64,000 nt of DNA from Daucus carota subsp. sativus (lineage: Eukaryota; Streptophyta; Magnoliopsida; Apiales; Apiaceae). A model generated the notes under the pieces. The model saw only the letters and a program-made list of their open reading frames with translations. It had not been told where the DNA came from and ran no database searches. The translations under genes and the position numbers were made by a program. Shown piece after piece: positions 32,315-63,121 of the stretch. The stretch is taken from assembly GCF_001625215.2 (NCBI RefSeq), contig NC_030383.2:50030380-50094379 (forward strand), given 5' to 3'. Every line of letters begins with the position of its first letter. Positions within the stretch are counted from its first letter, which is position 1.

Positions 32315-32932
32315 ATGAAGCCATATATCTTTCTTCCTTTCTTCCTTTTACTTGTCCCTTGTGCTCTTGCGGCATCAGCACCGAATCCAGTGATTGACAC
32401 TTTTGGAAGGTATCTCCGACAAGGCGTCAGCTACTACATTGTGCCTGTTCCCCCTGAAGACCCGACGGTGAGCAGCCGAGGTGGCGGCCTCAACCTGGCT
32501 GCTACCAGGAACAAAACCTGCCCCCTAGACGTTGTTCAAGAGATGGATGAAAATAACAAGGGCCTTCCGTTCAGTTTTATACCAATTAATCCCAAGAAAG
32601 GCGTTATTCGCGAATCAACTGATTTGAACATCAAGTACATGGGTGACACGGCCTGTAATGAGTCCATGGTTTGGATGCTGAATCAGTTAGGTGATCCCAA
32701 TGGACCATATTTCGTGACGACAGGGGGAGTTGAAGGGAACCCTGGGGCTCAAACCATTGGCAACTGGTTTAAGATAGAAGTATTTATCGACGACTATAAA
32801 ATCATGTATTGTCCCACAGTATGCAAATACTGCAAAGTTATTTGTAGAGATGTTGGAATTGTGGTGGTGAATGGCAGGAGATATCTGGGACTGACTGATC
32901 AACCCCGCAGAGTTATGTTCAAAACTCAATAA
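32315..32932 (+). CDS. Kunitz (miraculin-like) protease inhibitor
   Basis: Intronless gene, 205 residues. Signal peptide at about 1-20 (FLPFFLLLVPCALAA), so the product is secreted or vacuolar. The Kunitz/STI signature is complete (VIDTFGRYLRQGVSYYI). Six cysteines are present: NKTC, DTAC, and the CPTVCKYCKVIC cluster typical of miraculin-like members. The WFKIE and TGGVEGNPG core motifs are intact. Family members form a beta-trefoil that blocks serine proteases, often in defence against insects or pathogens; whether this one inhibits any protease is unknown. It converges with the P450 at 33.4 kb. Confidence 0.93.
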   Translation: MKPYIFLPFFLLLVPCALAASAPNPVIDTFGRYLRQGVSYYIVPVPPEDPTVSSRGGGLNLAATRNKTCPLDVVQEMDENNKGLPFSFIPINPKKGVIRESTDLNIKYMGDTACNESMVWMLNQLGDPNGPYFVTTGGVEGNPGAQTIGNWFKIEVFIDDYKIMYCPTVCKYCKVICRDVGIVVVNGRRYLGLTDQPRRVMFKTQ

Positions 32933-33397: not shown

Positions 33398-34933
33398 TTA
33401 GGACCATCTATTCTTCACACTAACTTTCAAGCCATGTTTCATATACAAAATCATAGATAGACCGGGAGTCGCGACATGTCCTTCCACCAAATGAAAACTG
33501 TAATTATGGATCAATGCAGCTGCAACCAATTTCAGTTGATAATAGGCCACATTTTTCCCTAGGCATGTCCGCGGCCCTGCATTAAACGACACAAACTTAT
33601 AAGGTGGTACGTGTTTTGAACTTCCATCAGCTGAAATCCATCTCTCCGGTTTGAAATCGCTGCAGTCTTTTCCCCAAACACTCACCATCCTTGCCATCGA
33701 AAACAGGGGAATCATCACTCTTAAGTTTGGATGAACACGGTGACCTGTGGGAAGAATGTCTGCCTTAGTGGCTTCCTTGTGCTGAAAAGGAACTGGCGGG
33801 TACAACCTTAAAGCTTCCGAAAGTGCACAATGTAAATAAGTCATGTTACTCAGCTCTTCTTCGCTGAAAAGTCGCCTTGTTTGAGTTTCATTAGGCGGTA
33901 TGTGTGCTTGCAGTTCCTCTCGGATCTTTGCTTTTACTTCCGGATGTGTGATGACAAGCCAAAGAAACCAAGTTAAGGCCGAGCTAGTCGTGTCCCTCCC
34001 TGCAATCATGTGATTTAGCACGATATCTCTTGCAAATTTGTCGCTTTTCAACTCCAATGACATATCCTCTTCAGTTAAATACAACGTTAGTAGATCAACG
34101 CCCGCTTCATCTTCCTTCTCGTGGGATTCAACTTCCTCTGTTCTTAACTCGGCTCGTTTTCTTGATACATAAGCGTACACAACATCGTCTAAAATTTTCT
34201 GAGCCTCCCTCATTTTCCTCTCAAATCCGATGTTTAGCCATCTTAGCAACTTCCATAAAGGCAGAGGCACGATATGGCGCAAGAATATAACTTCTTCAGC
34301 ATCATCCATTGCTTTAGAAAACGGAACTTCCGGAAATTCAGTGGAGAGGCTCATTGGATCAAAACCCGTGACGAACCTGCAAGTCGTGTCAAAGCTGAGT
34401 CTCTGAAACACATCTTGCATGTCCACAACATATCCCTCCTCGGAGACATGATCCATGATTCCGAGTAGCCCCTTCTCGATCTTCTCCCGGCTCGTTCTCA
34501 TCAAGTAGTGGCGGAATCGATGATGATTGAAAAGGCCTTGCGCGTGTCTCCTCTGACTCCTCCACGAATGGCCATCCGCATTAAAAATACCATCTCCTAG
34601 AACATCGAATATGACCTTGAATTCGGACCCCTTGTTAAAAATTTCGTACTTTTCATTCAGAATATAACGGACATCGTCAGGATGAGTAGTGAACAACATG
34701 TCCATGTTAGCGAACCAAGGCCCTTTGAGTAGAAAAGTACCCCCTGCTTGAGCAAGATCTGCTGAACCAGATGCATGTGGATCTTGAACCATAAATTTCT
34801 TTATCATGTATGGCACCATCCCCACCAATGGCCAGTTCCATGGGAGACCATCGTTGTAGCGCAGTATTTTTATGCAGTAAAAGCTTAAAACTGCTATAGC
34901 AATTTCAAACAATCCAAGACCTAGTACTTCCAT
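33398..34933 (-). CDS. cytochrome P450, CYP96A-like, second copy
   Basis: Intronless, 511 residues, closely similar to the P450 at 27.2 kb along its whole length. Anchor at 1-22, I-helix AGRDTTSS, EALR, FKPERW and haem loop FNAGPRTCLGKN are all intact. Differences from its sister cluster in the N-terminal 60 residues (PYMIKKFMVQDPHASGSA against PWLINTSIRQDRHDIGAA) and around 260-275 (SRKRAELRTEEVESHEKEDE), away from the catalytic core. It is probably also an ER-bound hydroxylase of long aliphatic chains; sub- or neofunctionalisation cannot be judged. A TATA stretch lies at about 34999-35008 on the minus strand. Confidence 0.93.
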   Translation of the reverse strand: MEVLGLGLFEIAIAVLSFYCIKILRYNDGLPWNWPLVGMVPYMIKKFMVQDPHASGSADLAQAGGTFLLKGPWFANMDMLFTTHPDDVRYILNEKYEIFNKGSEFKVIFDVLGDGIFNADGHSWRSQRRHAQGLFNHHRFRHYLMRTSREKIEKGLLGIMDHVSEEGYVVDMQDVFQRLSFDTTCRFVTGFDPMSLSTEFPEVPFSKAMDDAEEVIFLRHIVPLPLWKLLRWLNIGFERKMREAQKILDDVVYAYVSRKRAELRTEEVESHEKEDEAGVDLLTLYLTEEDMSLELKSDKFARDIVLNHMIAGRDTTSSALTWFLWLVITHPEVKAKIREELQAHIPPNETQTRRLFSEEELSNMTYLHCALSEALRLYPPVPFQHKEATKADILPTGHRVHPNLRVMIPLFSMARMVSVWGKDCSDFKPERWISADGSSKHVPPYKFVSFNAGPRTCLGKNVAYYQLKLVAAALIHNYSFHLVEGHVATPGLSMILYMKHGLKVSVKNRWS

Positions 34934-40563: not shown

Positions 40564-41187
40564 CTAAGCCTTCTTGAAGAAAACCTGAAAAGCTTTCTCA
40601 GTATTCAAAGCCAAGCGTCTGGTTCCACTCTTTTCAATTAAGATACCAAGGTCACCACAGACAGGTCTGCAAATGTCGCACACCCCGGGACAGAACACAA
40701 GCTTATACCAATTGTTGTTCCCCTCGAGCCTCTCTATTTTAAACCAGTTACTTAATGTATCACTGCCAGGATTTCCAATAACTCCCCCGGTTGAGACGAA
40801 TCGTTGATTCGAACCTGCATCGCCTCCATCGAGCCTCCACACAGTGGATTGCGGGCAGGCCGAGCCGCCAGAGAATTCAATGTTCAAATCTGTGGATGCT
40901 CGTACTGTGGTCTCGTTAGGGTTTACAGGGAAAAATGTGACAGGGACACCGTTGTTGAGCTCACCGCCCTCTTGGACGACGTCTGAAGGGCATTCGCTGG
41001 TTCTTCCACTGTACAACTTGAGGCCTCCGCCATTGCCTCGGACCACGGGGAGTATGTAGTATTTTGTGCCGGTATGGAGCTCCTGGCCGTCTGTGTCGAG
41101 AACTGCATCAGTAGCTGCGAATATGATCTGCAAATTTGTGATGATGAGAACGACAAGGGTGGAGAGTAAGACGTTTGTGTTCTTCAT
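40564..41187 (-). CDS. Kunitz (miraculin-like) protease inhibitor
   Basis: Intronless, 207 residues, with a signal peptide (STLVVLIITNLQIIFA) and the full signature VLDTDGQELHTGTKYYI. Core motifs are RGNGGGLKLYSGRTSECPSD, STDLNIEF, STGGVIGNPG, NWFKIE and the CPGVCDICRPVC cysteine cluster. It ends EKSGTRRLALNTEKAFQVFFKKA. The RGNGGGLK-YSGR and SGTRRLALNT motifs tie it to the gene at 48.2 kb rather than to those at 44.4 or 50.2 kb. It is one of two genes of the cluster read from the minus strand. A TATA box (CTATATAAAG, minus strand) lies at about 41238-41247. Confidence 0.93.
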   Translation of the reverse strand: MKNTNVLLSTLVVLIITNLQIIFAATDAVLDTDGQELHTGTKYYILPVVRGNGGGLKLYSGRTSECPSDVVQEGGELNNGVPVTFFPVNPNETTVRASTDLNIEFSGGSACPQSTVWRLDGGDAGSNQRFVSTGGVIGNPGSDTLSNWFKIERLEGNNNWYKLVFCPGVCDICRPVCGDLGILIEKSGTRRLALNTEKAFQVFFKKA

Positions 41188-44364: not shown

Positions 44365-44970
44365 TTAGGCTTTCTTGAACATAACTCTGAACGGCTCATC
44401 ATCTGTGAGCGCCAAAATCCTCCTCCCATTTTCTATAAAATAACCAACATCCTTACAAATAACTTTGCAGAACTTACACACCGTGGGACAGAACACAAGC
44501 TTGTAATCATCCCCATTTTTCTCAATCTTAAACCAGTTCCCTGTTGTGCTAACACCAGGACTTCCTTCAACTCCTCCACTAGTCACGAAATACTTCTTCC
44601 TCGATTCATCGTACTTGTCCAGCTTCCAGACAGTCGATTGCACGCAGATCGTGGCGCCCAAAAACTTGACATTCATATCCGTGGATTCGCGTATCACGCC
44701 TTTCTTGACATTTACGGGTGTAAATGTCACTGGAAGGCCATTTTTAACTTCATGCAGCTCCTGGACAACATCAAGTGGACAAGTTTTGTTCCTGGTTGCA
44801 GCTAGGGTAAGGCCGCCGCCTTGGCCACGGATCACGGGCAGTATGTAGTAGCCGGTGCCTGTAACCAGCTTCTTGCCTGCGATATCTAGCACCGGATTGT
44901 TAGTTGCCGAATTTACAGAATTTAGGGCACATAGAAGGGAAAACAAGAAGAGGAGTGTTGCTTTCTTCAT
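44365..44970 (-). CDS. Kunitz (miraculin-like) protease inhibitor
   Basis: Intronless, 201 residues. Signal peptide LLFLFSLLCALNSVNS; signature VLDIAGKKLVTGTGYYI; then GGGLTLAATRNKTCPLDVVQ, RESTDMNVKF, VWKLDKYDESRKKYFVTSGG, NWFKIEKNGDDYKLVFC and the CPTVCKFCKVIC cluster. The LAATRNKTCPLDV segment and the YDE-R-KYFVT loop tie it to the genes at 26.1 and 32.3 kb. A TATA-like stretch lies at about 45025-45035 on the minus strand, immediately before a tandem repeat that forms its upstream region. Confidence 0.93.
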   Translation of the reverse strand: MKKATLLFLFSLLCALNSVNSATNNPVLDIAGKKLVTGTGYYILPVIRGQGGGLTLAATRNKTCPLDVVQELHEVKNGLPVTFTPVNVKKGVIRESTDMNVKFLGATICVQSTVWKLDKYDESRKKYFVTSGGVEGSPGVSTTGNWFKIEKNGDDYKLVFCPTVCKFCKVICKDVGYFIENGRRILALTDDEPFRVMFKKA

Positions 44971-45040
44971 TTTGCTAGATTTTCTTTTGGTATTATGACT
45001 ACTAATTATACAGTGGAACCTGCGGTATATATTGATACTT

Positions 45041-45398
45041 GATAGTGTTGAAATAGAGCAATGATCTATTTGAAGTCTTCCTGTAACAACTTAAGAGTTT
45101 TAGATGTATTGGTTCTCAACATGGTATAGAGTCAGGTTTGACGGAGGTCTGAAGTTCGACTCTCCGTCAACTCCAGTATTTGATAGTGTTGAAATAGAGC
45201 AATGATCTATTTGAAGTCTTCCTGTAACAACTTAAGAGTTTTAGATGTATTGGTTCTCAACATGGTATAGAGTCAGGTTTGACGGAGGTCTGAAGTTCGA
45301 CTCTCCGTAAGAGTTTTAGATGTATTGGTTCTCAACATGGTATAGAGTCAGGTTTGACGGAGGTCTGAAGTTCGACTCTCCGTCAACTCCAGTATTCT
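45041..45398. repeat. tandem repeat (141-bp unit, about 2.6 copies) upstream of a Kunitz gene
   Basis: GATAGTGTTGAAATAGAGCA starts at 45041 and 45182. A third, partial copy joins at 45308, where TAAGAGTTTTAGATG restarts 75 bp after its previous occurrence. Each copy carries CAACATGGTATAGAGTCAGG and GAAGTTCGACTCTCCG. These resemble, respectively, the initiator-tRNA primer-binding sequence found in plant copia-type elements and a tRNA B box. No tRNA fold could be drawn. Confidence 0.85.
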
Positions 45399-46028: not shown

Positions 46029-47524
46029 TAAGTTCTCAATAGATAGACTTAAATATATCGGCAGAAGACAACGATCTTAAAATGATCTTCTAAATTTGTA
46101 CAAGTCAATTCACTCAATAGTCAATATCAAATTGTATACTTGTTTGGTTATTTTATATGTAGATCATGTTGACATCTTGTCTTTATCTTTATCTATTTAT
46201 ATGTACCGTATATTGTCGTAATAAGAGTGCGAAGACAATAAGTTCTTCATCATGTGTTTATGGCTTTGAAGGTGGGTCGCAGAAAATCATACAATTGATT
46301 ACGAAGTCTATATACCTCATACCTGTGCTCAGATTTGGAAATTATTTTGAGATGTGCGCAAGCAATAATAAAAGTATTGAATCCCTGGGAGAAGTCCACC
46401 ACTAAATTATTATGGGGTCTTCTCGTAGACACCCGAGTCCAAAACATTTTCTTGCAAAAATATTATAGTTTTTTCAAATATTTGCAAAAATATCAAAATT
46501 TTAAATATATTTATAAAAATACTGTATGTAAAACCGTTGCAATCACGCAAGCAACAGATCCTCTCCTCATATATGTGTTTTTGTTTTTGCACTTATTGAC
46601 ATTAGCAGGTAGCCAAGTACAGTGATGAAAATGGCTATACTACCCTTAGTTCTAACTACAGCACTAGCTTTGTTAAATGATTTTTAACAAAAATACACAT
46701 AATACAAAAATCTTGAAACTAGCTACATATACACGCTTTGCTGGATTCGAAAATCGCATTTTACTCAAAATACTCCCTCTGTTTTTTAATATATGACGTT
46801 TGACTTTTTGACAAACATTTTTGATTTCTAGTTATTGGGATTGGGATACTGATCTCGGAGTTAAACAACAAAGGGGCAATTTGAGGTCCACCGACCACCG
46901 TGAGTGTTGACTCCATGATCCATATCGCGTATAACTCAATTCTTATCTTGAAGTTCAAATAACTGATTACATACACCAACTTGTATAATGTACCCTCCAT
47001 GTAGCTGCAAATTGTAGACAACTATATCCTATTTATCTTCCATTTTATTCGATTTCCATTTGCATTTGCGGCCGCTCATGACGACTTGTTGTTATCCACA
47101 GCGCTTCAAATACAAGAAACTGTAATATTACCGTTTACCGGAACATTTTGTTGAAAACGAATCAAACCGATGCATATGTGCTAAGTGCTATCATGTTTCA
47201 TCACTGTTGAACTGTTCAGTACAGTTGACTTAACTCGAACCTAGTGGAGTTTCTACCGAACTCGATTGCAATGAACGGTGGAAAGAAATGAGCCCAATAA
47301 GGATACAGAGTGGCCAGACATAAATTAAACGGCAAACATCTTGTGATTGAAATTGAATTAAACATATTCAATCAACTAAATCTGATCATATCTCGAGTAG
47401 GGTTTTTCTGGTATATTTACACTAACAAATGTACTCTCCACTTAGATGACAAGGGGAGATAATTGTTTGCGGAGATTAGGAGCGGGTTTGGGTAAGTTTA
47501 AAATTGTGACTATGTCCAGTTGCC
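46029..47524. other. AT-rich intergenic DNA, one truncated Stowaway end
   Basis: 46771-46820 reads CTCCCTCTGTTTTTTAATAT then ATGACGTTTGACTTTTTGAC, the left half of a Stowaway-like element without a partner. Nothing else was recognised. Confidence 0.4.
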
Positions 47525-48143
47525 AACTTTAACTTATACTAATTATTTTCGACCGGATTACATTTTCGACCGTATAGGATCAAATATAATTGTGGTAAAA
47601 AATTATGGTCGAAAATAGCCGCTTTTCCGATAGTGTTTTCCTTTTTGGGGTCCGCGGACTTTGCATTTTCCTTTGAGTGTTTTCCTTTTAAATATTAAGA
47701 TTTTTTATCTAAATTTTCATGAGACGTATATGGATGTCCTCTATTTAGATGAAATACGTTTATGTGTGGAAGAAGCTCTCACTTTCGATATTACATATCG
47801 ATATAATTCGTTTACGTAAAATTTAATAACACAAAAAGGTTATGATTACAGTTTATTTATAATTTTAGGCTAGATCTTAATTAGTTCAATATTCAGTTGA
47901 ACGAAATGTGTAACTCAAACTACGTTTACTTAGCTCCTAGAGTTCTCATTTTTTGACATTTGTATATCTACTCGAAATGTATTCATATTTGGGCGAAGAA
48001 AAGATTGACTTTTCCTTCTTGTTTCTCTCTTTTTACTTTCGCTTTGTAATAGAAGCAAAGGCGATTTTGCATTTGTGTCGTCAAGTTTCTGAAAGAGGCT
48101 CTAGACACGCATTTCAAATTATTCCAGTGTCTGGTTCTTGTTG

Positions 48144-48153
48144 TTATAAAAAG
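48144..48153 (+). promoter_or_regulatory. TATA box of the type A Kunitz gene
   Basis: TTATAAAAAG lies about 60 bp before the ATG. The same promoter, slightly altered, precedes the pseudogene at 55.9 kb. Confidence 0.5.
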
Positions 48154-48210
48154 GACCCTCTGGTTTGCAATTTAGCAGATATCCTTAAATATTAAAACCA
48201 CCAAGTGAAA

Positions 48211-48840
48211 ATGAAAACAGCAATTTTCTCACTGTCCTGCCTTCTCATTGGCTTCACAACCAACCTCTGGCTCGCTTCTGCCGCAACAAATAGAGTGATC
48301 GACGTAGATGGTAAGGATCTTCTAGCCCGAACAAACTACTACATTTTGCCAGTCCTTCGAGGCAACGGTGGTGGCCTTAAAATGTACAGTGGAAGAGATA
48401 CTGAATGCCCATTTGACGTTGTACAAGAACCGAATGAGGTTAACAGAGGCCTTAAACTTACAATTGTCCCTCAAAAATCTACGGAACAGTTTATTCGTGT
48501 ATCCACCGATGTGAACATTCAGTTTTCAGATAAATCAACATGCACTGCACACACAAATGTGTGGAGGCTTGACCAAGCCGATTTAGCTAATGGTACAACG
48601 TATGTCTCAACTGGAGGAATCTTAGGCAATCCCGGTGCTTCGACATTTAACTGTTGGTTTAAGATTGAGAAAGTTGAGCGTGGAACCAATTGGTATAAGC
48701 TTCGGTTCTGTCCTTCTGTGTGCAAGCATTGCCCGCCTGATTGCGGTGATGTTGGTGTTTTGATTGAGAAGAGTGGAACAAGACGCTTGGCTCTAAATAC
48801 CACTGGGAAAGCTTTTGAGGTTTTCTTCAAGAAGGCCTAG
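48211..48840 (+). CDS. Kunitz (miraculin-like) protease inhibitor, type A of the tandem blocks
   Basis: Intronless, 209 residues from the ATG at 48211, which is also the start kept in the pseudogene copy at 55913. Signal peptide FSLSCLLIGFTTNLWLASA; signature VIDVDGKDLLARTNYYI; RGNGGGLKMYSGRDTECPFD; VSTDVNIQF; STGGILGNPG; WFKIEK; cysteine cluster CPSVCKHCPPDC; C terminus EKSGTRRLALNT then VFFKKA. It shares the GNGGGLK-YSGR and SGTRRLALNT motifs with the gene at 40.6 kb. NWF of the other genes is CWF here, adding a seventh cysteine to the mature protein that could change disulfide pairing. Confidence 0.93.
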   Translation: MKTAIFSLSCLLIGFTTNLWLASAATNRVIDVDGKDLLARTNYYILPVLRGNGGGLKMYSGRDTECPFDVVQEPNEVNRGLKLTIVPQKSTEQFIRVSTDVNIQFSDKSTCTAHTNVWRLDQADLANGTTYVSTGGILGNPGASTFNCWFKIEKVERGTNWYKLRFCPSVCKHCPPDCGDVGVLIEKSGTRRLALNTTGKAFEVFFKKA

Positions 48841-49069
48841 ACTTCATTTTATTTGCACTTCGTCTTTTGCTAAAATAAAAACCAATAATAAGCATTTGAT
48901 CTGTTGGTCAATATCTACATCCTAATAAATCCATGTAATCTGTTTTCTTTATGGGTAACTATTATTGTTTGATCTGCTGGTCAATATCTACAGCAGGATG
49001 CGACGGATTTAATCATGAAAATTGTTGAAGTAAAAAACCGATGTAAGCCTTTGATGATATTTATAAGTC

Positions 49070-49346
49070 AACAATATCTGTCGGCTTTAAAGCTTATACA
49101 TGGATTACAAAAATTTTATACGTCAGTCAGTCAATAGGTTTTTATACATCGGCGATAGAGAACATTATACGTCGGAGTTTTCATCATTTACGTCGGTTTG
49201 AAAAAAGACGTATATTTAATATTTACGTCGCATTTTTAACCGACATAAAATCTTACGATTATATACGTCCCCTCTATATGTCGACACATCATCCTTTTGC
49301 CAACGTATAACACATATTTAACCGACGTAAAAGGCCTATTTTGTGA
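49070..49346. mobile_element. insert with TTACGTCGG repeats, probably CACTA-derived
   Basis: Flanking DNA (AAGCCTTTGATGATATTTATAAG before, ATAATAAGTT after) is nearly contiguous in block 3 at about 56295-56335, so this stretch is extra in block 1. It is dense in TTACGTCGG / CCGACGTAAA motifs that fold back, and its right side ends TTTTGTG. The first flank is quoted in two parts of the source (AAGCCTTTGATG, ATATTTATAAG). Confidence 0.5.
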
Positions 49347-50142
49347 TAATAAGTTAGTCAAATACTTTAGTCAAATACTTTTAACTGTAAAGCTGCTGGT
49401 AAATCTTTCTGGGACCAAAAGCAATGGTATGGTTTGTGTTAAATGAAAAGCAATCTAATTAATAATAAAAACTGGCGACTTTGGCTACACAAAACTCTTA
49501 TTCAACAATCCAAATTATCAATTTTCATTCTAACTAGATTTAATTAGAGTACGGCAACTTCCTCTCCCATTCAATTATATACATTATTTTTTGGCACGCT
49601 TATAAGAAACCTTTAAAATGAAGCTCTCTAATATATTTTTTTCTGAACAGAAGTTTGATGTTGAAACTTTTATTTAAAAAAAAACATTATGAAAATATAT
49701 TTTATAAAAGACTCTAAATACGTGCAAACAGTGAACGTATACAAATCAACATAACATAGAGAGAGAGTAAGTAGTAGGTTCGTCCCCTTAAAGCGTAGGG
49801 ACATGATTTTATAGAAGAGGTTTAACCGAATATACTCAACAAAAACCCATAATAATTTAGTACATAAGAACCGATAAATCGCCACACTGAATTGACTTCT
49901 CTTACAGACTGAGCCCACTGCAAAGATGCCATATATATATATTGAACACAGCCAAAGCAGCTACTAGTAAATTAAAAACCGAGAGAAACACAGTCGTTTA
50001 AAATGACCGCTGGAGTTTCATTTTCGTACTTTCCTAGAAAAAAAAAGGCAAGGATTAATAAACCCATGGTATCTTAGAAATATACACTGCAATTCTTAGC
50101 CGTGTTTTGATTTTAAAAGTTAATCGCCCATTTTCTTCTCCC

Positions 50143-50150
50143 TATATATA
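50143..50150 (+). promoter_or_regulatory. TATA box of the type B Kunitz gene, block 1
   Basis: TATATATA followed by GAGCAACGAGAGCTAGCTC. The same promoter occurs at about 53088 and 56868, before the other type B copies. Confidence 0.5.
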
Positions 50151-50215
50151 GAGCAACGAGAGCTAGCTCTTATGCTCCACACAAAATTAGTTTAATCATA
50201 TACAATAAATTCATA

Positions 50216-50821
50216 ATGAAAATATCATCAATAGCTTTCCCATGCCTTGGAATGGCTTTCATGGCATTTTTTCTGGTTTCGTGTAATGCAGCACCTGCTA
50301 TTGTGCGTGACATGAATGGTGACATACTCCGAGAGGGCGCTAACTACTACATCATTATGCCGGTGGACCACGGAAAGGCCGGTGCAGTAACTTTGTCGAG
50401 CAGGAATGGCTCCTGCCCGCTTGATGTCGTTCAGAGCAAATATGGGACCGATAAAAGATACCTTAACATTTTCTCATTCACACCAGTTAATCTCAAAACA
50501 GGCGTGGTTCGTGAGTCGACTGATCTTAACATCGAAGCTGCAGGTGGATCATACTGCGGAAAGCCGGTCTGGAAGCTAGACAGTTACGGGGGAGAGTTTG
50601 TTGTGAGTACCCTGGGAGTAAAAGGAAATCCTGGAGCTAAAACTATAGGCAACTGGTTCAAGATTGAAAAATATTTGAATCACTACAAGTTTGTGTATTG
50701 CCCATCAGTATGCAAAACTTGCAAAGCAATGTGCAAAGACATCGGCATTTCGAGGAAGGGTAAGAGTGGAAGATTGGTTCTTAATGATAAACCATTCATG
50801 GTTTCATTCAAGAAGTTCTAA
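50216..50821 (+). CDS. Kunitz (miraculin-like) protease inhibitor, type B, block 1
   Basis: Intronless, 201 residues. Signal peptide IAFPCLGMAFMAFFLVSCNA; signature VRDMNGDILREGANYYI; then SSRNGSCPLDVVQSKYG, VVRESTDLNIEAAG, NPGAKTIGNWFKIEKY and the CPSVCKTCKAMC cluster. It differs from the copy at 53.2 kb at roughly ten residues and lacks the Met of PMVWKLD (a 3-base difference). LG replaces RG in the STRGVKGNPG loop. Promoter and leader are almost the same as in the two other type B genes, so the three are probably expressed alike. Confidence 0.93.
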   Translation: MKISSIAFPCLGMAFMAFFLVSCNAAPAIVRDMNGDILREGANYYIIMPVDHGKAGAVTLSSRNGSCPLDVVQSKYGTDKRYLNIFSFTPVNLKTGVVRESTDLNIEAAGGSYCGKPVWKLDSYGGEFVVSTLGVKGNPGAKTIGNWFKIEKYLNHYKFVYCPSVCKTCKAMCKDIGISRKGKSGRLVLNDKPFMVSFKKF

Positions 50822-52452
50822 ATGTTTTATACCGACTCGGCGGTATTTCAAAAATCATATAGCATAATATTGTTATGTTATGGTTGATTTCAAATAAATG
50901 GATCAAATCCGATCCACAATGAATATCATGAAATAAATTCTGTTTTTTTAATATATATAAATACGAGAACTTTAATATCTTATTTGTTAATGAGTGAATG
51001 AGAGAAAATAAACTAGACTAAAATTTTGATGAGTAGTTGAATGGTTCACACCGCCATATATCATGTATACCGACTGAATATATGCAAATCTGGGCGACGA
51101 GTGTTGATTTAGTTCTTTTAAATAAATTTAATATCAAACAAAATGTTAAATCAAACTTTAAATTTATTAATAAATATTTAATAATATAATATATATGTAT
51201 GTATATATGTATCATCAGTATCGTATAGATATATAAACAAATCATAATATTAGTTTGTATTATAAATTCTTGTTAAATAACTGAAATATTTTTTTGATTA
51301 AGACATTCAATAGTTTTGAAATTTTATTCATTCAAAATATTTAGTCAATCCAGAAAATCAATTTTAAATTTAACAAATGAAAAATAATTCAATCATTCAA
51401 AATATTACTCATCCAGAATTCTCATTCATTCAGAAAATATGATTCATATTTAACAAATATGATTTTTTTCGAAGGAGTGTCTTTTTGGGAGATTTTTTGA
51501 TTATATATAATGATTTTATCTTCTCATCAATTAACGATTTTGCGCTTTTCTAAATGATTTTATTTAAATGTTTAGCAATAATTTTTGTACTTGATTTCTT
51601 ATTTCTCTTTTACATTCCTTCCTTCCGGCCCGCGCTTCTTCTGTCTTTTAATTGGATTTTCTTTTCAATCATTGAATTTAACTGACTAAATTTTCTGAGG
51701 TCATCTCAGCATGACATTTCGGTTAGAAAGTAGATTTGTCGACCCTGCTATTCTTGGCCGTCAAAACCTTGTCAAAAATATATTTTCGACCGCAACCGGT
51801 TGAAATTACAACTTCCACTCTTCTCAGCCGAAATCAAACACATAATGATAGTAGAAAATACATTTTCTACCGTTTGCAGTCAATATATATTCAACCATAG
51901 ATGATCGAAAATGTATTTTCTATCGTGCCTAGTTGCAAATAATATTTTGCGCCCTAATATTTCATATAAGAAAAAGCGGCAAGATTTCCGCCCAAGTTTT
52001 ATTTTCGACAACAATCTTATTTGACGGGGGATGTGGGCAGGAAAATACCCACTTATGTGTTGGAGGGATTGACTGCTTGTACGGAGTCGAAATTAGCCTG
52101 GCCCGTTCGATCAGCTTCTTATTCAACTGTGTCGCGGCGCCAACTTTAACTTCTACTAATTATTTTCGATCCGGCTATATTCTCAACCGTATACGATCGA
52201 ATATAATCGATATCGAAAATAGTCACTTTTACTCATGTAGTGTTTCCTTTTTTGGGTCCTCGGACTTTATATTTTCCTTGGAGTGTTTTTTTTTCAAATA
52301 TTAAGATTTTTTTCTATTTTTTTTATGAGACATCTCTGTATGTCCTCTGTTTAGATGAAATACTTTCATGTATGGAATAAGCTCTTGCTTTCGATATTGT
52401 ATATGAGTATAATTCATTTACGTGAAATTTAATGACACAAAAAGGTTATAGC

Positions 52453-52700
52453 ACTACAACAGATTCAGCATCAGCTCTTAAAACAGTTGTCTAACATGCA
52501 TCATTACACAATACCACAGTTAAGAAAACGTTGTCTAATTGAATTTACTAGACAACATTTTTTTAACCGTTGTAGGGCGTAGGTGTTAGACAATAGTTTT
52601 TCGAGGACGAAAAGAAAGTGTTGTGTCTTAATTCCAAACAACGCTTTTTTCACCCTGCGTTGTCTGATCAGTGTTGTCTAATGGTGTTTTTGTTGTAGTG
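52453..52700. mobile_element. CACTA-type MITE with perfect 3-bp duplication
   Basis: 248 bp with ends CACTACAACAGATTCAGC and TTTTTGTTGTAGTG, flanked by TAG on both sides (52450-52452 and 52701-52703). The other two blocks carry the uninterrupted site after AAAAAGGTTATG (about 47840 and 55540). The inside contains AGACAAC/GTTGTCT units. Confidence 0.85.
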
Positions 52701-53159
52701 TAGTTATAATTTATTTATAATTTAAGGCTAGATCTTAATTAGTTCAATATCCAGTTGAACGCAATGTGTAACCGAATCATATTATATACTCAACAAAGAC
52801 CTATAATAATTTAGTACATAAGGACCGATAAATCGCCCCACTGAATTGACTTCTCTTACAAACTGAGCTCACTGTAAAAATCCATATATTAAACACAGCC
52901 AAAGCAGCTACTAGTAAATTAAAAACCGAGACAACCACAGTCGTTTAAAATGACCGCTGGAGTTTCATTTTCATACTTTCCTGAAAAAAAAGGCAAGGAT
53001 TAATAAACCCACGGTATCTTAGAAATATACACTGCAATTCTTAGCCGTGTTTTGATTTTAAAAGTTAATCCCACGTTTTCTTCTCCCTATATATGGAGCA
53101 ACGAGAGCTAGCTCTTATGCTCCACACAAAATTAGTTTAATCATATACAAAAATTCATA

Positions 53160-53768
53160 ATGAAAATATCATCAATAGCTTTCCCCTGCCTTGGAATGGC
53201 TTTCGTGGCATTTTTTCTGGTTTCCTGTAATGCAGCACCTGATATTGTGCGTGACATGAATGGTGACATACTCCGAGAGGGGGCTAACTACTACATCATT
53301 ATGCCGGTGGACCACGGAAAGGCCGGTGCAGTAACTTTGTCGAGCAGGAATGGCTCCTGCCCGCTTGATGTCGTTCAGAGCAAATATGGGACCGATAAAA
53401 GATACCTTAACATTTTCTCATTCACACCAGTTAATCTCAAAAAAGGCGTGGTTCGTGAGTCGACTGATCTAAACATCGAAGCTGCAGGTGGATCTTTCTG
53501 CGGAGAGCCAATGGTCTGGAAGCTAGACAGTTACGGGGGAGAGTTTGTTGTGAGTACTCGGGGAGTAAAAGGAAATCCTGGAGCTAAAACTATAGGCAAC
53601 TGGTTCAAGATTAAAAAATATTTGAATCACTACAAGTTTGTGTACTGCCCATCAGTATGCAAAACTTGCAAACCAATGTGCAAAGACATTGGCATTTCGA
53701 GGAAGGGTAAGAGTGGAAGATTGGTTTTTAATGATAAACCATTCATGGTTTCATTCAAGAAGTTCTAA
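53160..53768 (+). CDS. Kunitz (miraculin-like) protease inhibitor, type B, block 2
   Basis: Intronless, 202 residues. All type B motifs are present: VRDMNGDILREGANYYI, SSRNGSCPLDVVQ, RESTDLNIEAAG, PMVWKLDSYGGEFVVSTRG, NPGAKTIGNWFKI and CPSVCKTCKPMC. Compared with its sisters it has KKY for EKY after WFKI and Pro for Ala in the last cysteine loop. Signal peptide is intact, so the product is probably secreted or vacuolar. Its upstream neighbour in the block has been lost. Confidence 0.93.
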   Translation: MKISSIAFPCLGMAFVAFFLVSCNAAPDIVRDMNGDILREGANYYIIMPVDHGKAGAVTLSSRNGSCPLDVVQSKYGTDKRYLNIFSFTPVNLKKGVVRESTDLNIEAAGGSFCGEPMVWKLDSYGGEFVVSTRGVKGNPGAKTIGNWFKIKKYLNHYKFVYCPSVCKTCKPMCKDIGISRKGKSGRLVFNDKPFMVSFKKF

Positions 53769-55912
53769 ATGTTGTATACCGACTCGACTGTATTTTAAAA
53801 ATCATATAGCATAATATTATTATGTTATGGTTGATTTCAAATAAATAGATCAATTCCAATCTACAAAATCAATAATATTTTCTCTTCGTTGTCATAATAT
53901 GATTATTGAATATTTGTGCTGATAAAGGTTGGAGTTCGCAATTCAAGTTAAGTTTGTGGAGCCTAAAGAAGTTGACACAATGAAAATCAAATCCACAATG
54001 AATATTATGAAATAAATTCTGTTTTTTTAATATATATAAATATGAGAACTTTTAGATCTTTTTTGTTAATGAGTGAACGAGAGAAAATGAAATAGACCAT
54101 TCTTTTTCACCATCCATGTTATTTGTTTTACACTTTCAAAATTTGGATGAGTACCTGAATGGTTAACACAACTGTATATCATGTATACCAACTGAATATA
54201 TGCAAATCTGGGCCACAGAGGGTTGATTTTAGTTCTTTTAAATAAATTTAATATTAAATAATATGTTAAATCAAACTATAGATTTATTAATAAATATTTA
54301 ATAATATAATATATATGTATGTATATATGTATCATTAATATCGTACAAATATATAAAAAAAATCACAATATTAGTTTGTATTATAAATTCTTGTTAAATA
54401 AATGAAATATTTTAAGATTAAGACATGCAATAATTTTGAAATTTTATTCAGTCGAAATATTTAGTCATCCATAAAATCAATTTTAAATTTAGCAAATGAA
54501 CAATAATTCAATCATTCAAAATATTACTCATCCAAAATTCTCATTCATTCAGAAATATGATTCATGTTTAACAAATATGATTTTTTCGAAGGAGCGTCTT
54601 TTTTGAAGTTTTTTTGATTATATATAATGGTTTTATCTTCTCATCGATTAACCATTTTGCGCCTTTCTAGATGATTTTATTTAAATGTTTTGCAGTAAAT
54701 TTTGTACTTAATTTCTTATTTCTCTTTTACTTACCTTCCTTCCCGAGCCTCTTGTGTCTTTTAGTTGGATTTTCTTTTCAATCATTAAATTTTACTGACT
54801 AAATTTCCGAGGTCATCTGTGCATGACATTTAGGTTAGAAATTAGATTTGTCGACCGTGCTATTTTCGACCACCAAAACCTTGTCAAAAATTAAAACTTC
54901 GAGTCTTTTCAGCCGAAAACACATAATGATAGTAGAAAATACATTTTTGACCGTTTGCAGTCAATATATATTCAACCAGAGATGATCGAAAATGTATTTT
55001 TCTACCGTGCCTAGTTGCAAATAATATTTTGCGCCCTAATATTTCATATAAGAAAAGGCGGCAAGATTTCCGCCCAAGTTTTATTTTCGACAACAATCAT
55101 ATTTGACGGGGGATATGGGCGGGAAAATACCCACTTATGTTTTGGAGGGATTGACTGCTTGTACGGAGTTTAAATTAGCCCGGCCGTTCGATCAGCTTCT
55201 TATTCAACTGTGTCCCTGCGTCAACTTGAACTTCTACTAATTATTTTAAATCGGGCTATAATTTCAAACATATACGATCAAATATAATCGCGATCGAAAA
55301 TTAGGATCGAAAAAATCACATTTCCTGTAGTGTTTCCTTTTTTGGGTCCGCGAACTTTACATATTTCTTTTAGTGTTTTCTTTTCTGATATTAAGATTTT
55401 TTATTTAAATATTTATGAGACATTTATGTGGATGTCTTCTGTTAGATGAAATACTTTCATGTATGGAATAAGCTTTTGCTTTCAATATTGTATATCAGTA
55501 TAACTTATTTACGTGAAATTTAATGCACACAAAAAGGTTATGGTTTCAATTTATTTATAATTTTAGGCTAGATCTTAATTAGTAATATGCAATTGAACAA
55601 AATGTGCAACTCGAACTACGTTTACTTAGTTCCTAGAGTTCTCATTTTTGACATTTGTATATCTACTCAGAAATGTATTCATATTTAGGCGTAAGGAAAG
55701 ATTGACTAATTTTGCTTCTTGTTTTTCGTTTTTTACTTTCGCTTTGTAATAGAAGCACATAGATGATTTTGCATTTGTGTCAACTTTCTAATAGAGGCTC
55801 TAGACACGCATTTCAAATTAATCCGGTGTCTGGTTCTTGTTGTTATTATAATAAGGATCCTCTGGTTTGCAATTTAGCATATAACTTTAAACATTAAAAC
55901 CACCAAGTGAAA

Positions 55913-56048
55913 ATGAAAACAGCAATTTTCTCACTGTCCTGCCTTCTCATTGCCTTCACAACCAACCTCTGGCTCGCTTAATTCTGCCGCAACAAATAGA
56001 GTGATGGACGTGAATGGTAAGGATCTTGTAGCCCGGACCGACTACTAT
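55913..56048 (+). pseudogene. 5' stub of a type A Kunitz gene
   Basis: It matches 48211 onwards through the signal peptide and the N-terminal signature region (ATAGAGTGATGGACGTGAAT, GGTAAGGATCTTGTAGCCCG), then stops. The rest of the coding region is gone; DNA matching the 3' flank of the 48.2 kb gene resumes near 56184 (GATCTGCTGGTCAATATCTA). A small insertion also interrupts the signal-peptide region. A miniature transposon occupies the junction. The promoter is intact enough that transcription is possible. Confidence 0.88.
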
Positions 56049-56182
56049 CTCCCTTTTATACATTAAAAATTAATGGGTGCCACCACTTCACCCTTTTTTT
56101 TCGCTCTTTCCCGCTACCTTATACAGATTTCTTAACCTCTTTGACTAAATCTTATGTAAACAAATGGCTGGGACGGAGGGAG
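56048..56182. mobile_element. Stowaway-like MITE at a deletion junction
   Basis: TCTCCCTTTTATAC on the left, GGGACGGAGGGAG on the right, with TA at 56046-56047 and 56183-56184. It is only 135 bp and the arms pair poorly beyond the tips, so it may itself be deleted internally. Confidence 0.5.
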
Positions 56183-56942
56183 TATTTTTGATCTGCTGGT
56201 CAATATCTACAGCAGGCCAAGCACTGTTGAATGCATATAGCCAATATTCAATGGATTTAATCATGAAAATTATTCAAGTAAAAAACCAATAGTAAGCCTT
56301 TGATGATATTTATAAGCACCGATAATAAGTTAACCAAATGCTTTTAACTATAAAGCTGCTGGTAAATCTTTCTGGGACCAAAAGCAATGGTAATTAGGTT
56401 TGTGTTAAATGAAAAGCAATTTTAAAATAAAAACTGGTGACTTGGCTACACAAATTATTCAACAATCCAAATTATCAATTTTCATTTCAATTGGATTTTA
56501 TCAGAGTGCGGCCGTTAAGTTGACAGTTAACTAGTAGGTTTGTGTCCTAAAATTCATATTATATATATACTCAACAAAGACCCATAATAATTTAGTACAT
56601 AAGGATTGATAAATCGCCCCACTGAATTGACTTCTCTTACAGACTAAGTTCACTGCAAAAATCCATATATTAAACACAGCCAAAGCAGCTACTAGTAAAT
56701 TAAAAACCGAGACGTCACAGTCGTTTAAAATGATCGCTGGAGTTTCATTTTCATACTTTCCTGAAAAAAAAGCCAAGGATTAATAAACCCATGGTATCGT
56801 AGAAATATACACTGCAATTCTTAGCCGTGTTTTGATTTTAAAAGTTAATCCCCCATTTTCTTCTCCCTATATATAGAGCAACGAGAGCTAGCTCTTATGA
56901 TCCACACAAGATTAGATTACTCATATACAATATATATTCATA

Positions 56943-57551
56943 ATGAAAATATTATCAATAGCTTTCCCATGCCTTGGAATGGCTTTCGTGGCATTTTTTA
57001 TGGTTTCGTGTAATGCAGCACCTGATATTGTGCGTGACATGAATGGTGACATACTCCGAGAGGGCGCTAACTATTACATCTATATGCCGGTGGACCATGG
57101 GAAGGCCGGTGCAGTAACTTTGTGGAGCAGGAATGGCTCATGCCCGCTTGATGTCGTTCAGAGCAAATATGGGACCAATAAAAGTTACCTTAATATTTTT
57201 TCATTCACACCAGTTAATCTCAAAAAAGGCGTGGTTCGTGAGTGGACTGATCTTAACATCGAAGCTGCAGGTGGATCATTCTGCGGAGAGCCAATGGTCT
57301 GGAAGCTCGACAGTTACGGGGGAGAGTTTGTTGTGAGTACTCGGGGAGTAAAAGGAAATCCTGGAGCTAAAACTATAGGCAACTGGTTTAAGATTGAAAA
57401 ATATTTGAATCACTACAAGTTTGTGTATTGCCCATCAGTATGCAAAACTTGCAAAGCAATGTGCAAAGACATAGGCATTTCGAGGAAGGGCAACAGTGGA
57501 AGACTGGTTCTTAACGATAAACCATTCATGGTTTCATTCAAGAAGTTCTAG
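56943..57551 (+). CDS. Kunitz (miraculin-like) protease inhibitor, type B, block 3
   Basis: Intronless, 202 residues with every type B landmark (VRDMNGDILREGANYYI, NGSCPLDVVQSKYG, PMVWKLDSYGGEF, NWFKIEKY, CPSVCKTCKAMC). It differs from the block 2 gene at about eleven residues. Two of these change Ser to Trp: TLWSR for TLSSR, and REWTD for RESTD, the latter at a position that is Ser in every other copy of the cluster. YIYMP replaces YIIMP after the signature. The changes sit in loops, so altered target range is possible but unproven. The big MULE begins about 265 bp downstream. Confidence 0.93.
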   Translation: MKILSIAFPCLGMAFVAFFMVSCNAAPDIVRDMNGDILREGANYYIYMPVDHGKAGAVTLWSRNGSCPLDVVQSKYGTNKSYLNIFSFTPVNLKKGVVREWTDLNIEAAGGSFCGEPMVWKLDSYGGEFVVSTRGVKGNPGAKTIGNWFKIEKYLNHYKFVYCPSVCKTCKAMCKDIGISRKGNSGRLVLNDKPFMVSFKKF

Positions 57552-57815
57552 ATGTTTTATACCGACTCGGTTGTATTTTAATAATCATATACCATAATAC
57601 TGTTATGTTATATATGGTTGATTTCAAATAAATGGATCAAATCTGATCTACAAAATCAATAATATTTTCTCTTCATTGTCATAATATGACCGATTATTAA
57701 ATATTTGTGCCGGTAAATGTTGATGTTTACACTTCCAAGTTAAGTTTGTCTGGGGAAAAGAAGTTGCCACAATGAAAATCTAATTTTTTAAAATAAATTC
57801 TAATTTTTTTAAGAG

Positions 57816-57990
57816 TGATTGACACTTTGCACCCCTTATGTTTGGGCGCTTTTTCGATTTGGTCTCAAACAATTTTTTTTGTCACTTTGCATCCGTAAGT
57901 TTAAAAAGCGCTTCACTTTGCACCCCTTTGACCAGTCTCCGTTTATTTGACTGTTAACTTTAACGGAGCCAGGGTTAAAAGGGTAAATTC
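57816..57990 (+). repeat. MULE left terminal inverted repeat
   Basis: Pairs with 62947-63121 with few mismatches. It probably carries the transposase promoter, since the coding start is only about 150 bp further in. GTGCAAAGTG-type motifs recur three times within the arm. Confidence 0.9.
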
Positions 57991-58142
57991 GCTTGCCGAT
58001 TAAAACTAAATAACATTTTAGCGAATTAAAATTACATTTCAGTAAATCAAACAAAACAAAACTCCATCCGCCTCTTGATCGAACCCTCTTCCCGCCCCCC
58101 AAATCTCTCTGATTTCGCCGATCGATAAACCCTAGTGCTGCG

Positions 58143-61100
58143 ATGAGAGGTCGATTACGAGTTGTTAGCGATGATAATCTGAGGACTTGCACTTGGGCTG
58201 AAGTCCCCGACTGGTATTGGCTCGCGAGTCTTGAAAACCACACTGAAGTGCCCACAATCGAAGTCCCTGCAGTGCCAGAAGGATCTGAAGTGCCTGATTA
58301 TGGGGGTAAGTATCTCTAATTGAAACTTGTCTAATGTTGATTTCACTTCGGATGTATATTGTATTTCGTATGCATGCATGATAGATTAGGGTATGAATAG
58401 TTTATTGTAGTGGTATGAATAGTTTAATAGTGTGTATTGTCCTGTAGTGCTCTTTTTATATTCACTTGTTTATATCCTGTAGTTGTAGATTTGTTGTGTT
58501 TTTCGAGCTTATTTTCTTCAATTAGGGTAATTTAATTTGGGTAATTAAGTTGTAGGTTTACTGTATATGTTGTAGTCCTTAAATTTGAGGTTGAATTTTG
58601 GTAATTTTGTTGTAGGTTTACTGCATTTGTTATATTCCTTAAATTTGTGTAATTTAATTTTTTCAACAGCTGACTCTATAAACTTCACCATCAAACTGTA
58701 TCATGGTGGAGAATTTGATGAAAAGTTTGAGAAATATACTGATGGGGAGTTCAAGTACTTTGACATGTGCTCACCTAAGGATTTTAAGTTATTTGACCTC
58801 CGGTCAATGTGTGAGGAAATAGGAATAGGTGAAGGTTGTTATGATTTGTGGTTCAAGATTCCTCACCAACCTTTAAGCGCAGAGATGTTGCTCCCCCTTG
58901 ACAGTGAAAAAGATGTGGGAGTGATGGTGGACTTGCTGATATATAGCAATTGTATGGAAGTGTACACATCTGCCAAAGATCAAGGTGAAGATGATATGTT
59001 TGACTTCTCGTTCACACAGTATGCAGAGGATGAAAGAGAGAGGAGAGTAGGTGAGATGTATGATGAATTGGAAGAGGGAGAAGGTGAGGCTGAAAATGAG
59101 GGAGAAGGTGAGGCTGCAAATGAAGAGCTGGAGGATGATGTGAGTTTCCATGGAGATTCTTCGAATCTGGATTCGAGTGAGAGTGAGGTTGAACCACCCC
59201 CGAAGAAAAAAAGGAGAATTCCTCCTCCAAATCAACCATTCAGGCTAAGAAAAAGAGGAAGATACTCAATGTTAAGGGTATGATCACATTTCAAACTTTG
59301 AATTACTGTGTTTCTTACTTACTGTCTGACTTACTGTGTTTCTTGTTTCTTGTTATGTATTAGGGACTATTCAAAAATACTCCTGATAATCCGGTGGTAG
59401 TGGATGATGAGGGTCCTCCAGTGACCCAACCAAGCCAACCAAGTGAAGATGTCAAAAAGAAGAGTGATAAAAAGAGGCAACCAAAAAAGCAGACTAAGAA
59501 GACTAAGAAGACCAAGACCAAAAAAAGTGAAATAGGGGAGTCAAGTGCTACCATTCCAGAAACACTGGAACACCCTGCAGATACAGAATTGAACCCCACT
59601 GCAGATGTACCTACCATTCCAGAAAAAGAAGACCCTGCAAAGGAGGAAATTCATGACAGTGCTGGTCATAATGCTGAGGACAATGCTGAGGAATTTGTGG
59701 CTGGTGACAATGCTGAGGAATTTGTGGCTGGTGACAATGCTGAGGAATTGGACAAAGAATTTTTTGGTGATGATAGTTCAGAAGGTGCATTCAACAGTGC
59801 AGATGAGAGGATGGCCTTGGACTCAGGGGATGAATCTGGCAGTGATTGCAAAGAATTCAATGAATTGACAGATATGGAAGACCCCCAATTTGAAATGGGT
59901 ATGAAATTCACCAGTGGGAGAGTCTTCAGGGCAGCTGTATGGAAGTATGCCATAAAAAATCAGAGAGCCCTCAGATTGAAGAAAAACCTACCAGATAAGA
60001 TTAAATGGGTTTGCGCAGATGGTTGTCCATGGAAATGCTATGGTCTGAAGCAGCAAAGGACTGAAACAATTCAGATAAAAGCTATCTGCAGACTACACAC
60101 TTGCAATCCCACCTGGGAGCAAAAATTTGTGAATTCAACATGGATTGCTGAAGCCTATGAGGATGAGATAAGGCTTAATCCAAGATGGGAAACCACTGCT
60201 TTTCATGCCAAGGTGGTTAATGACCTGAAATGCAAAATCTCCCTCTCTATTAATTACAGAGCACTGAGGAAAGCTAGAGACAACATAGCAGGCAAGCATG
60301 AAGCTGAGTATGCAAAAGTTTTTGCATATGGTAATGAGATAAAGAGACAAATGCCTGGATCTACAGTGAAGATTATGTCGGAACCTAATCAAGCTGGTAG
60401 GAGGTTTCTGCGGATGTACATATGCCTTGCACCATTGAAAGAAGGCTTTTTAGATGGCTGTAAACCAGTTATAGGTTTAGATGGGTGCCATCTCAAAGGA
60501 CCTCTAGGTGGCATCCTCTTGACTGCAGTTGGGACGGATCCCAACGATGGGATGTACCCAATTGCATGGGCCCAAGTAGAAGCAGAGAATAACTCCAGCT
60601 GGGACTGGTTTCTAGGCTTGCTGAAGGATGATTTAAACATAATGAATGATGGTAACTACACATTCATATCTGACAGGCAAAAAGGCCTTGTAAATGCACT
60701 TGAAAATCATGTTCCAATGGCAGAGCATCGCTTTTGTGTTATGCACTTATATAAGAATTTATGGAAGGAATTCAAAGGAATTGGTGTAAGGAGGCTTCTA
60801 TGGTCAGCTACAAGGTCAACTACAGAGTACTATTTCAAGAGGCACATGGATGAATTGGAAAAGGTAATTACTTATTTCTAAATTTGTTACCTATTTCTTT
60901 CCAAATACACCAAATGCACTGTAAATTTGTTATTTCACCTAGATTAAATGCTCTGTAAATTACATGTTATTTCACCTAGATGAAATGCACTGTAAATTTG
61001 TTATTTTACCTAGATTAAATGCTCTGTAAATTACATGTTATTTCACCTAGATTAAATGCACTGTAAATTAAGTTGTAGGACCTAGATTAAATGCATTGTA

Positions 61101-62525
61101 AATCTTGTGATTTGTTAGGTTTCACCTAGAGCTTATGAATGGCTGGCAGCAAAGCCAAGGTCACAGTGGAGTAGGTCGGCTTTCAGGGATGTCAGTAAGT
61201 CAGACACCTTCGTGAATAACAATTGCGAAGTTTTTAATCATGCCATTAACAACTTCAGAGACATGGGAATTGTCTCTATGTTCACTGCAATTCACAATGC
61301 CTGTATGGAAAGAATAAGTAAAAGAAAGTCTAAAATAGAGCAAAGAAGTACGAGGTTCTGCACAAAACCTCTGAAAAAACTACACAAGTAAGTGAAAACT
61401 CTTCTTACAGTTCTTACTTGCTCTTAATTTTGTATCTTCAATTTGTATCTAATTTTTGTTTTTTGATCTTATGAAGATCAATGGAAAAAGCAGGAACTGC
61501 TAGACCAGTGTGGAATGGGGGCTCTAAATATCTTGTCACAATGACCGAGGGTGGTCATCAAATTGTTTGTGACTTGCAGAACCAGACATGTGCCTGTAGG
61601 AAATGGCAACTGACAGGTATTCCTTGCTTCCACGCTTGTTCTTGCATCTTATTTCAAAAGCAAAGTCCCCTAGACTACATGCATCAATGCCACAACAGAG
61701 ATTGGTCCTTGAGAGTTTATAGTCATGTTCTTGAACCTATAAATGGGGAGCAATATTGGGAGGAAACACATGAAACACCATTATTACCTCCCAACATTAA
61801 GGTGGCTCCAGGAAGGCCTAAAAAAAATAGAGACAAAAAGAATGACATTCCTAAAACTAGACCAAATGATCCAACAATGATGAAAAGGCAAGGCACATCA
61901 GGTAGATGCACATGGTGTAAGGAGTGGGGACACAACACCAGGACTTGCAAAGCTAAGGTATTATATACCATTTTGCTAGGTATTATATATTCCTACTGCA
62001 AGGTTCTAACTAGGTTTTATTTTTTGCTAGAAACTTGATGAAGAGAGGAAAATGCAAGAGGAGGGACCTGGATCTGCTGAAAATGTGTCAAAGGAACCTA
62101 CCACTGCTGCTTGTTCTAAGGTATGAATTTGAGCATTCTTGATGTACAATTATTTGGCAAAGACAGGACTCTAACTATGTAATTACTTGCAGAAAAAAAA
62201 GGTGCAGTTTGAAGACACAACCGCAACCACAGGAGGTAGTCAAGACAAACAAGTATCAAACTCACAACCAAGAACAAAGCAGTTGGCAAAGAAAAGTGTG
62301 AGGACATCACCAATGAAGAGTGGAGGCAAAATCATACCATCAATCACAACCATAGATGTTGCTTCTCATGGAGGTATTATCAGACCCTTCAAAGCTCCAG
62401 GTAGAATAGCTCCTAAAACTCCATTGGATGTGCAGCCAGTAGAGGGCCAAAGGTTTACTTCATTGAAGAATTTGCAAGCTGCAGTACAGGAGAGGAAAAA
62501 TAGCAAGGGCAAGAAGAAAGCATGA
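58143..62525 (+). CDS. MURA-like MULE transposase
   Basis: Seven exons: 58143-58305, 58670-59277, 59364-60863, 61119-61387, 61477-61957, 62031-62120 and 62193-62525, giving 1147 residues with all phases consistent. Residues 55-257 form an N-terminal region with a beta-rich start (INFTIKLYHGGEFDE) and an acidic tail. A Lys-rich linker with three direct copies of EEFVAGDNA-like units follows. The plant MuDR DNA-binding domain is at about 430-530 (MKFTSGRVFRAAVWKYAIKN). The MULE catalytic domain has D630 (VIGLDGCHLKG), D694 (FISDRQKGL) and the H712-C715 pair (HRFCVMH). A SWIM zinc finger (CAC then CFH, about 885-905) and a CX2CX4HX4C zinc knuckle (991-1004) follow. The product would bind the element's ends and cut it out in the nucleus. 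Confidence 0.9.
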
Positions 62526-62946
62526 ACCGTGAGGGACCTTTTTTTTGGTCATTGTTGCCACCCATATCTTCAGCCAACTGTTTTTTTCTAGACATTTATG
62601 CTTGCATTTATCTTCTCAGATCTGTTTTTGGTTCAGTTGGTGGTTGATTTGAACTTAATGTTGCAACTACTATTTAGTCTATTTGGTCCCATGTTCTGTA
62701 AGATTCTATGCTACTTTGGAACAGCTTTTATCTATCAAATCTGTTTATCAACTTTGTAGATGTTCAGTCTTCTTTTTGAAGATATTCTATATTTGCTTTT
62801 ATGTTAATTTTAATGAATTTAGATGTTATTTAGTGCAAGTAATTGCTTTTATGCTTTGTAATTGTTCTATGGGCTCCAGTTTACTGCCAGGCGTTGCTCT
62901 GTTTCAGCATCTGCATGTTAGATATGATTTTTGGGTAAAAACGAGT

Positions 62947-63121
62947 GAATTTACCCTTTTAACCCTCGCTCTGTTAAAGTTAACAGTCAAATAAACGGAG
63001 ACTGGTCAAAGGGGTGCAAAGTGAAGCGCTTTTTAAACTTACGGGTGCAAAGTGACAAAAAAAATTGTTTGAGACCAAATCGAAAAAGCGCCCAAACATA
63101 AGGGGTGCAAAGTGTCAATCA
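62947..63121 (-). repeat. MULE right terminal inverted repeat
   Basis: Mirror of 57816-57990, ending AGTGTCAATCA. About 420 bp separate it from the transposase stop; that stretch is the probable 3' untranslated region and holds no second gene. Confidence 0.9.

Follow-up and report, generated by a model that had tools for sequence, protein, structure and literature searches.

The window (the whole 64,000-nucleotide stretch of carrot DNA analysed, C3:50030380-50094379; its coordinates are used throughout and continue beyond its end as window-frame coordinates, and features are on the plus strand unless marked minus) carries an array of three collinear direct blocks, found by self-comparison at 47509-57812. 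Each block contains an intact type B Kunitz gene. Judging from the distribution of variable sites, the middle block appears to be a recombinant, with a left part sister to block 3 and a right part sister to block 1. The history considered likely here (probability about 0.7) is duplication of an A-B gene pair, followed by a misaligned exchange that generated the middle block and then by the lesions in type A.

Block structure of the array and its Kunitz genes

The order upstream segment (U), type A gene, type B gene, downstream segment (D) had been read in all three blocks in the initial annotation, and collinear diagonals bear out both this order and the coordinates given for it. In the self-comparison, 47524-48341 matches 55222-56047 (85%), while 47509-47843 and 47846-47914 match 52126-52449 (79%) and 52704-52772 (93%), respectively; diagonals between the upstream segments, on which a proposed dot-plot check turned, are thus present. 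Further to the right, 49830-50919 matches both 52784-53866 (95%) and 56565-57653 (93%), and 50905-52449 matches 53984-55541 (85%, E=0). U1 (47509-47914), which includes fragments of dispersed repeats, aligns to 52126-52772 (U2) and to 55208-55612, where self-comparison and alignment place U3. The same two methods define D1 at 50822-52125; D2 occupies 53769-55207, and the start of D3 (57552-57812) is cut by a Mutator-like insertion. When D1 is aligned with block 2, a ~132-bp gap is seen at 50919/50920, with short direct repeats on its two sides. The corresponding stretch of D is present in blocks 2 and 3 and missing from block 1, probably as a private deletion between these repeats, and is therefore uninformative for kinship.

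The Mutator-like element interrupting D3 (57813-63121; ends approximate) has inverted ends of 178 bp that are 97.8% alike. It forms the left end of a 25.6-kb insertion closing at ~83442, with a T-rich repeat of ~9 bp at the edges of the insertion. Homology to D3 picks up again beyond the window, at about window-frame 83443-84048 (C3:50113822-50114427). The possibility that the array truly ends with block 3 was ruled out, as D3 resumes 25.6 kb on, past this insertion.

Both genes are complete in block 1, as first annotated: A1 (48211-48840) encodes 209 aa and matches the Kunitz_legume profile PF00197 at E=1.2e-51 (175.5 bits), and B1 (50216-50821) encodes 201 aa and matches at E=1.4e-42 (146 bits). 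B2 (53160-53768) and B3 (56943-57551), each of 202 aa, score 152.2 and 149.7 bits, so that type B is, as had been claimed, represented by a complete orf with a PF00197 match in all three blocks. The four intact array proteins match end to end (profile positions 1-176; E 1.4e-42 or better; curated cut-off 25.9 bits), as in plant Kunitz-legume (PF00197, STI-type) miraculin-like clusters. Comparison of A1 and B1 with PDB gave miraculin-like 5yh4 as the best match for each (A1, E=1.1e-50, first of 58 distinct chains; B1, E=1.4e-45, first of 46). On these similarities, both types belong to the Kunitz_legume family and are miraculin-like, predicted protease inhibitors.

The PF00197 profile, run against the whole 441-Mb genome (11 contigs), gave 16 matches above the cut-off, corresponding to 14 loci with a near end-to-end match and no stop, plus one frameshifted locus in two pieces. 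One cluster holds eight of the 14: 32315-32932, 40564-41187 (minus), 44365-44970 (minus), A1, B1, B2, B3 and B4, the last lying 27 kb beyond the window (window-frame 91302-91892). Outside the blocks, the window contains four further Kunitz loci, one of them frameshifted, and two more (S1 and S2) lie ~3.5 Mb off on the same contig. In a protein tree of 10 Kunitz sequences, A1, S2 and the window gene at 40564-41187 form one group (100/100), and B1-B3 another with B4 and S1 (99/96). These groupings, together with a saturated dS of 2.2 between B1 and A1, indicate that both types are old. Intact A-type relatives are found outside the array both nearby, at 40564-41187, and ~3.5 Mb distant, at C3:53639790-53640389.

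Lesions in type A and associated mobile elements

In block 2, U2 is joined straight to the region upstream of B2 at TAAC (52769-52772) and A is absent, in agreement with the fusion first placed near 52772. Block 1 has TAAC at both counterpart places (47911-47914 and 49823-49826). The stretch missing from block 2 is ~1.9 kb as measured on block 1, a figure that takes in a block 1-specific insertion located between A1 and B1 (49068-49345; ends approximate) and absent from block 3. This insertion is a repeat found at four other places in the genome, one with a second match inside.

U2 also contains a CACTA-like non-autonomous element (52452-52700), absent from blocks 1 and 3, with ends CACTACAAC/GTTGTAGTG and TAG on either side, which we take to belong to the CACTA superfamily. 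It has at least 39 other places in the genome (among the best 40 of 174 candidates), and most of those listed match only from position 20 of the element onward.

A3 of block 3 is a dead stub of type A (55913-56047). Alignment shows a 4-bp insertion that introduces a stop at codon 23, and a deletion has removed the remainder of the gene; homology to A ceases at 56047, which confirms the earlier reading of a stub ending at about 56048. The deletion ends at ACTA (56044-56047), inside a truncated Stowaway-like element (56048-56182) of which the left half is missing and the right end is intact with TA. Stowaway elements are characterised by ends of CTCCCTCCGTCCC or near, a TA flanking repeat and high copy number, and ends, TA flank and copy number of this Stowaway-like MITE type were found for the element at 56048-56182. 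It has at least 39 other matches (among the best 40 of 1440 candidates). Seven fuller genomic copies were aligned; all seven are flanked by TA on either side and carry CTCCC-type ends, the left end being exactly CTCCCTCCGTCCC in three.

The two losses of A had been described as reached by different routes. The breakpoints do differ, while both deletions look like one class, joined at 4-bp microhomology. A1 and A3 differ at eight of 131 aligned stub sites and at 22 of 292 promoter sites. Six of the eight stub differences could be polarised, with two A-type relatives as reference and the alignment judged by eye; all six fall on the A3 side, four of them amino-acid changing (two-sided sign test, p=0.03, on six sites only). 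This 6:0 excess suggests that A may already have been non-functional or under weak constraint by the time the middle block arose.

Kinship of the middle block and competing histories

Kinship of the middle block changes along its length. With the CACTA-like element removed, sites unique to one block number 41, 24 and 26 in U for blocks 1, 2 and 3, respectively, against 36, 43 and 81 in the combined B upstream region, B coding sequence, B 3′ segment (ending before the ~132-bp gap) and D. On these unpolarised counts, the ratio of block 1- to block 3-unique sites differs between U and the pooled B and D segments (Fisher p=9e-5). The contrast is 41:26 versus 15:42 for U against D alone (p=1e-4), and weaker, 41:26 versus 21:39, for U against B alone (p=0.004).

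To polarise shared-derived sites, copies of dispersed repeats served as outgroups, six of them for U and seven for D. Nine of 13 such sites in the left part of U join blocks 2 and 3 (blocks 1 and 3, three; blocks 1 and 2, one; 31 ambiguous), whereas in D, scored over block 1 positions 50943-51448 and the matching stretches of the other blocks, 10 of 12 join blocks 1 and 2 (one for each other pairing; 28 ambiguous); the contrast between the two main cells is significant (Fisher p=3e-4). On polarised sites, the part of U2 before the element is thus sister to U3, and D2 is sister to D1. In the B coding sequence, with B4 and S1 as outgroups, polarised sites are few and mixed (blocks 1 and 2, three; blocks 1 and 3, two; 16 ambiguous).

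An outgroup was also sought for the B upstream region and none was found, so the change point located there rests on unpolarised counts. Its best position corresponds to 49944-50191 of block 1 (within 2 lnL units), with a gain matched by 0 of 2000 permutations; a change point at the U/B junction is 4.0 lnL units worse. The final 69 bp of U, after the element site, contain four block 3-unique sites and one block 1-unique site. They fit kinship between blocks 1 and 2 and count against one clean switch located upstream of B.

Divergence was compared between segments. Within the coding sequence, pairs of the three B copies differ at 17, 29 and 31 positions. Block 1-2 pairs (B1-B2, dS 0.071; D1-D2, 0.086) appear younger than pairs with block 3 (B1-B3, dS 0.116; B2-B3, dS 0.153; D1-D3, 0.133; D2-D3, 0.152), and the apparent ages of B and D are in agreement with the kinship switch. 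In U the younger pairing is U2-U3 (0.155; U1-U2, 0.197; U1-U3, 0.212), and U is faster in every pairing, as expected from the repeat fragments within it.

A left-right switch of this kind would be expected in the new middle block after unequal crossing-over of two blocks, although gene conversion could mimic or move it. In the history proposed here, an A-B pair with its flanks would have been duplicated in tandem to give two blocks, today's 1 and 3. These would then have undergone a misaligned exchange, placed most probably 25-270 bp ahead of the B start codon, that produced the third, middle block, with its left part from the block 3 lineage and its right part from block 1. The middle block would subsequently have lost A through the ~1.9-kb deletion joined at TAAC, and A of block 3 would have been broken by the 4-bp insertion plus the deletion joined at ACTA within the Stowaway-like element. 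With the change point best placed upstream of B, the A gene that block 2 now lacks (A2) was probably of block 3 lineage. If so, one inactivation that preceded the duplication, with two different erosions after it, would fit equally well.

It had been proposed that a functional A was lost twice independently and that B was kept since extra dosage was useful or A dispensable. Two lesions with different breakpoints and an intact B in 3/3 blocks, under purifying selection (see below), are what this would leave. An exchange within U, as hinted at by the final 69 bp of that segment, would derive A2 from the A1 lineage and, that lineage being intact, would make the losses independent. This explanation nevertheless seems doubtful: the best change point places A2 in the A3 lineage, the one-sided excess of changes in A3 looks like weak constraint over some time, and intact A-type genes persist elsewhere. 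The suggestion that A is dispensable overlooks these relatives. The claim of two losses holds for the deletions themselves, which are separate and differ in their breakpoints; its extension to two independent functional losses is less certain, given a chimeric middle block.

A history with fewer events would have block 2 born without A, by tandem duplication of B1-D1-U (~2.95 kb) with U joined to the B upstream region at TAAC, so that only block 3 lost A. One event would then cover the missing gene, the 4-bp microhomology junction and the change of kinship from U to D, but this scheme appears to fit the pattern of sites less well and is considered unlikely. The switch should sit exactly at the junction, the position already disfavoured by 4.0 lnL units, and the end of U looks block 1-like. 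Moreover, the first 16 block 1- or block 3-unique sites of the B upstream region are U-like, 10 of the 16 being block 1-unique (p=0.002 under the right-hand ratio of 26/101, for a stretch picked after the change point had been seen). Wrong joining of haplotypes or copies during assembly, which is a general risk of tandem arrays and has nothing beyond this in its favour, is very improbable, given the private insertions in the blocks and their divergence at ~3-19% of aligned sites, depending on segment. Such divergence far exceeds consensus errors, and the array lies on a 64.6-Mb contig. Selection for B dosage is not needed under any of the histories considered.

Comparison with other clusters and selection on type B

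Unequal crossing-over is a general mechanism of change in tandem arrays, and this array resembles its products in consisting of collinear direct repeats with a chimeric middle copy, its left and right parts being akin to different neighbours; it goes beyond plain unequal crossing-over in that the middle copy is also without one of the two genes. The array represents ordinary birth-and-death of a tandem plant Kunitz family, a new instance of a known pattern. According to PMC11720115, the Kunitz inhibitor families of poplar, Arabidopsis and grape have grown mainly by tandem duplication, and most Kunitz tandem pairs of Populus yunnanensis have Ka/Ks <1; a KTI (Kunitz) cluster is reported in PMC6418295 to vary in copy number among soybean accessions. 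Differences from described Kunitz clusters are of detail only, the unit here being an A-B pair and the middle block recombinant. Among the titles and abstract openings listed from open-licence PubMed Central on Kunitz birth-and-death, tandem duplication and chimeric three-copy arrays, none concerned this array. It offers a compact example of change in a defence-type cluster, in which the sequence records duplication, exchange, microhomology deletion and transposon insertion alike, and a caution that gene absences in tandem arrays should not be counted as independent before the descent of the blocks has been tested.

The B copies are under purifying selection (dN/dS 0.17-0.28), which indicates only that their function as proteins has been maintained; such selection is expected for any working duplicate and says nothing of dosage. 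The B upstream region is slower, with divergence of 0.055-0.080, below that of D, reflecting either constraint or conversion. Gene conversion as a cause of low B divergence was set aside for the coding sequence, where dS of 0.07-0.15 is in line with the 0.086-0.152 of D.

On the arrangement proposed above, B2, formed in the same exchange that raised the copy number, would combine distal upstream sequence of block 3 lineage with a block 1 coding sequence and, after the later excision of A, would have U2 directly upstream; tentatively, it may represent a new expression variant of B.

Probable nested or composite structure of the Mutator-like insertion

The Mutator-like insertion that interrupts the downstream segment of block 3 spans 25.6 kb, its left end being formed by a 5.3-kb element (57,813–63,121) with inverted ends 97.8% alike. 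A third end, 89% alike, lies at the far right of the insertion (83,289–83,442, in window numbering continued along C3), and the whole looks nested or composite.

Repeats in the window

Among the three blocks, a stretch upstream of the intact type B gene B1 (49,557–49,760) is found in block 1 alone; it is 67% alike to 3,601–3,813 in self-comparison of the window and is probably another repeat insertion. Self-comparison also revealed a short tandem repeat at 45,036–45,396 (copy identity 99–100%; spacings 75 and 141 bp).

Further Kunitz loci

Another block duplication within the window comprises, in each copy, a Kunitz gene (26,139–26,755, carrying a frameshift between ~26,537 and 26,582; 32,315–32,932) followed by an opposite-strand orf (27,230–28,768; 33,398–34,933). 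These orfs share 82% DNA identity (window self-comparison) and presumably resemble cytochrome P450. Adjoining Kunitz gene B4, 27 kb past the window end, is an open frame of 309 aa (L046:8518–9447, minus strand), with leucine-rich repeats that we take to resemble those of plant resistance proteins.
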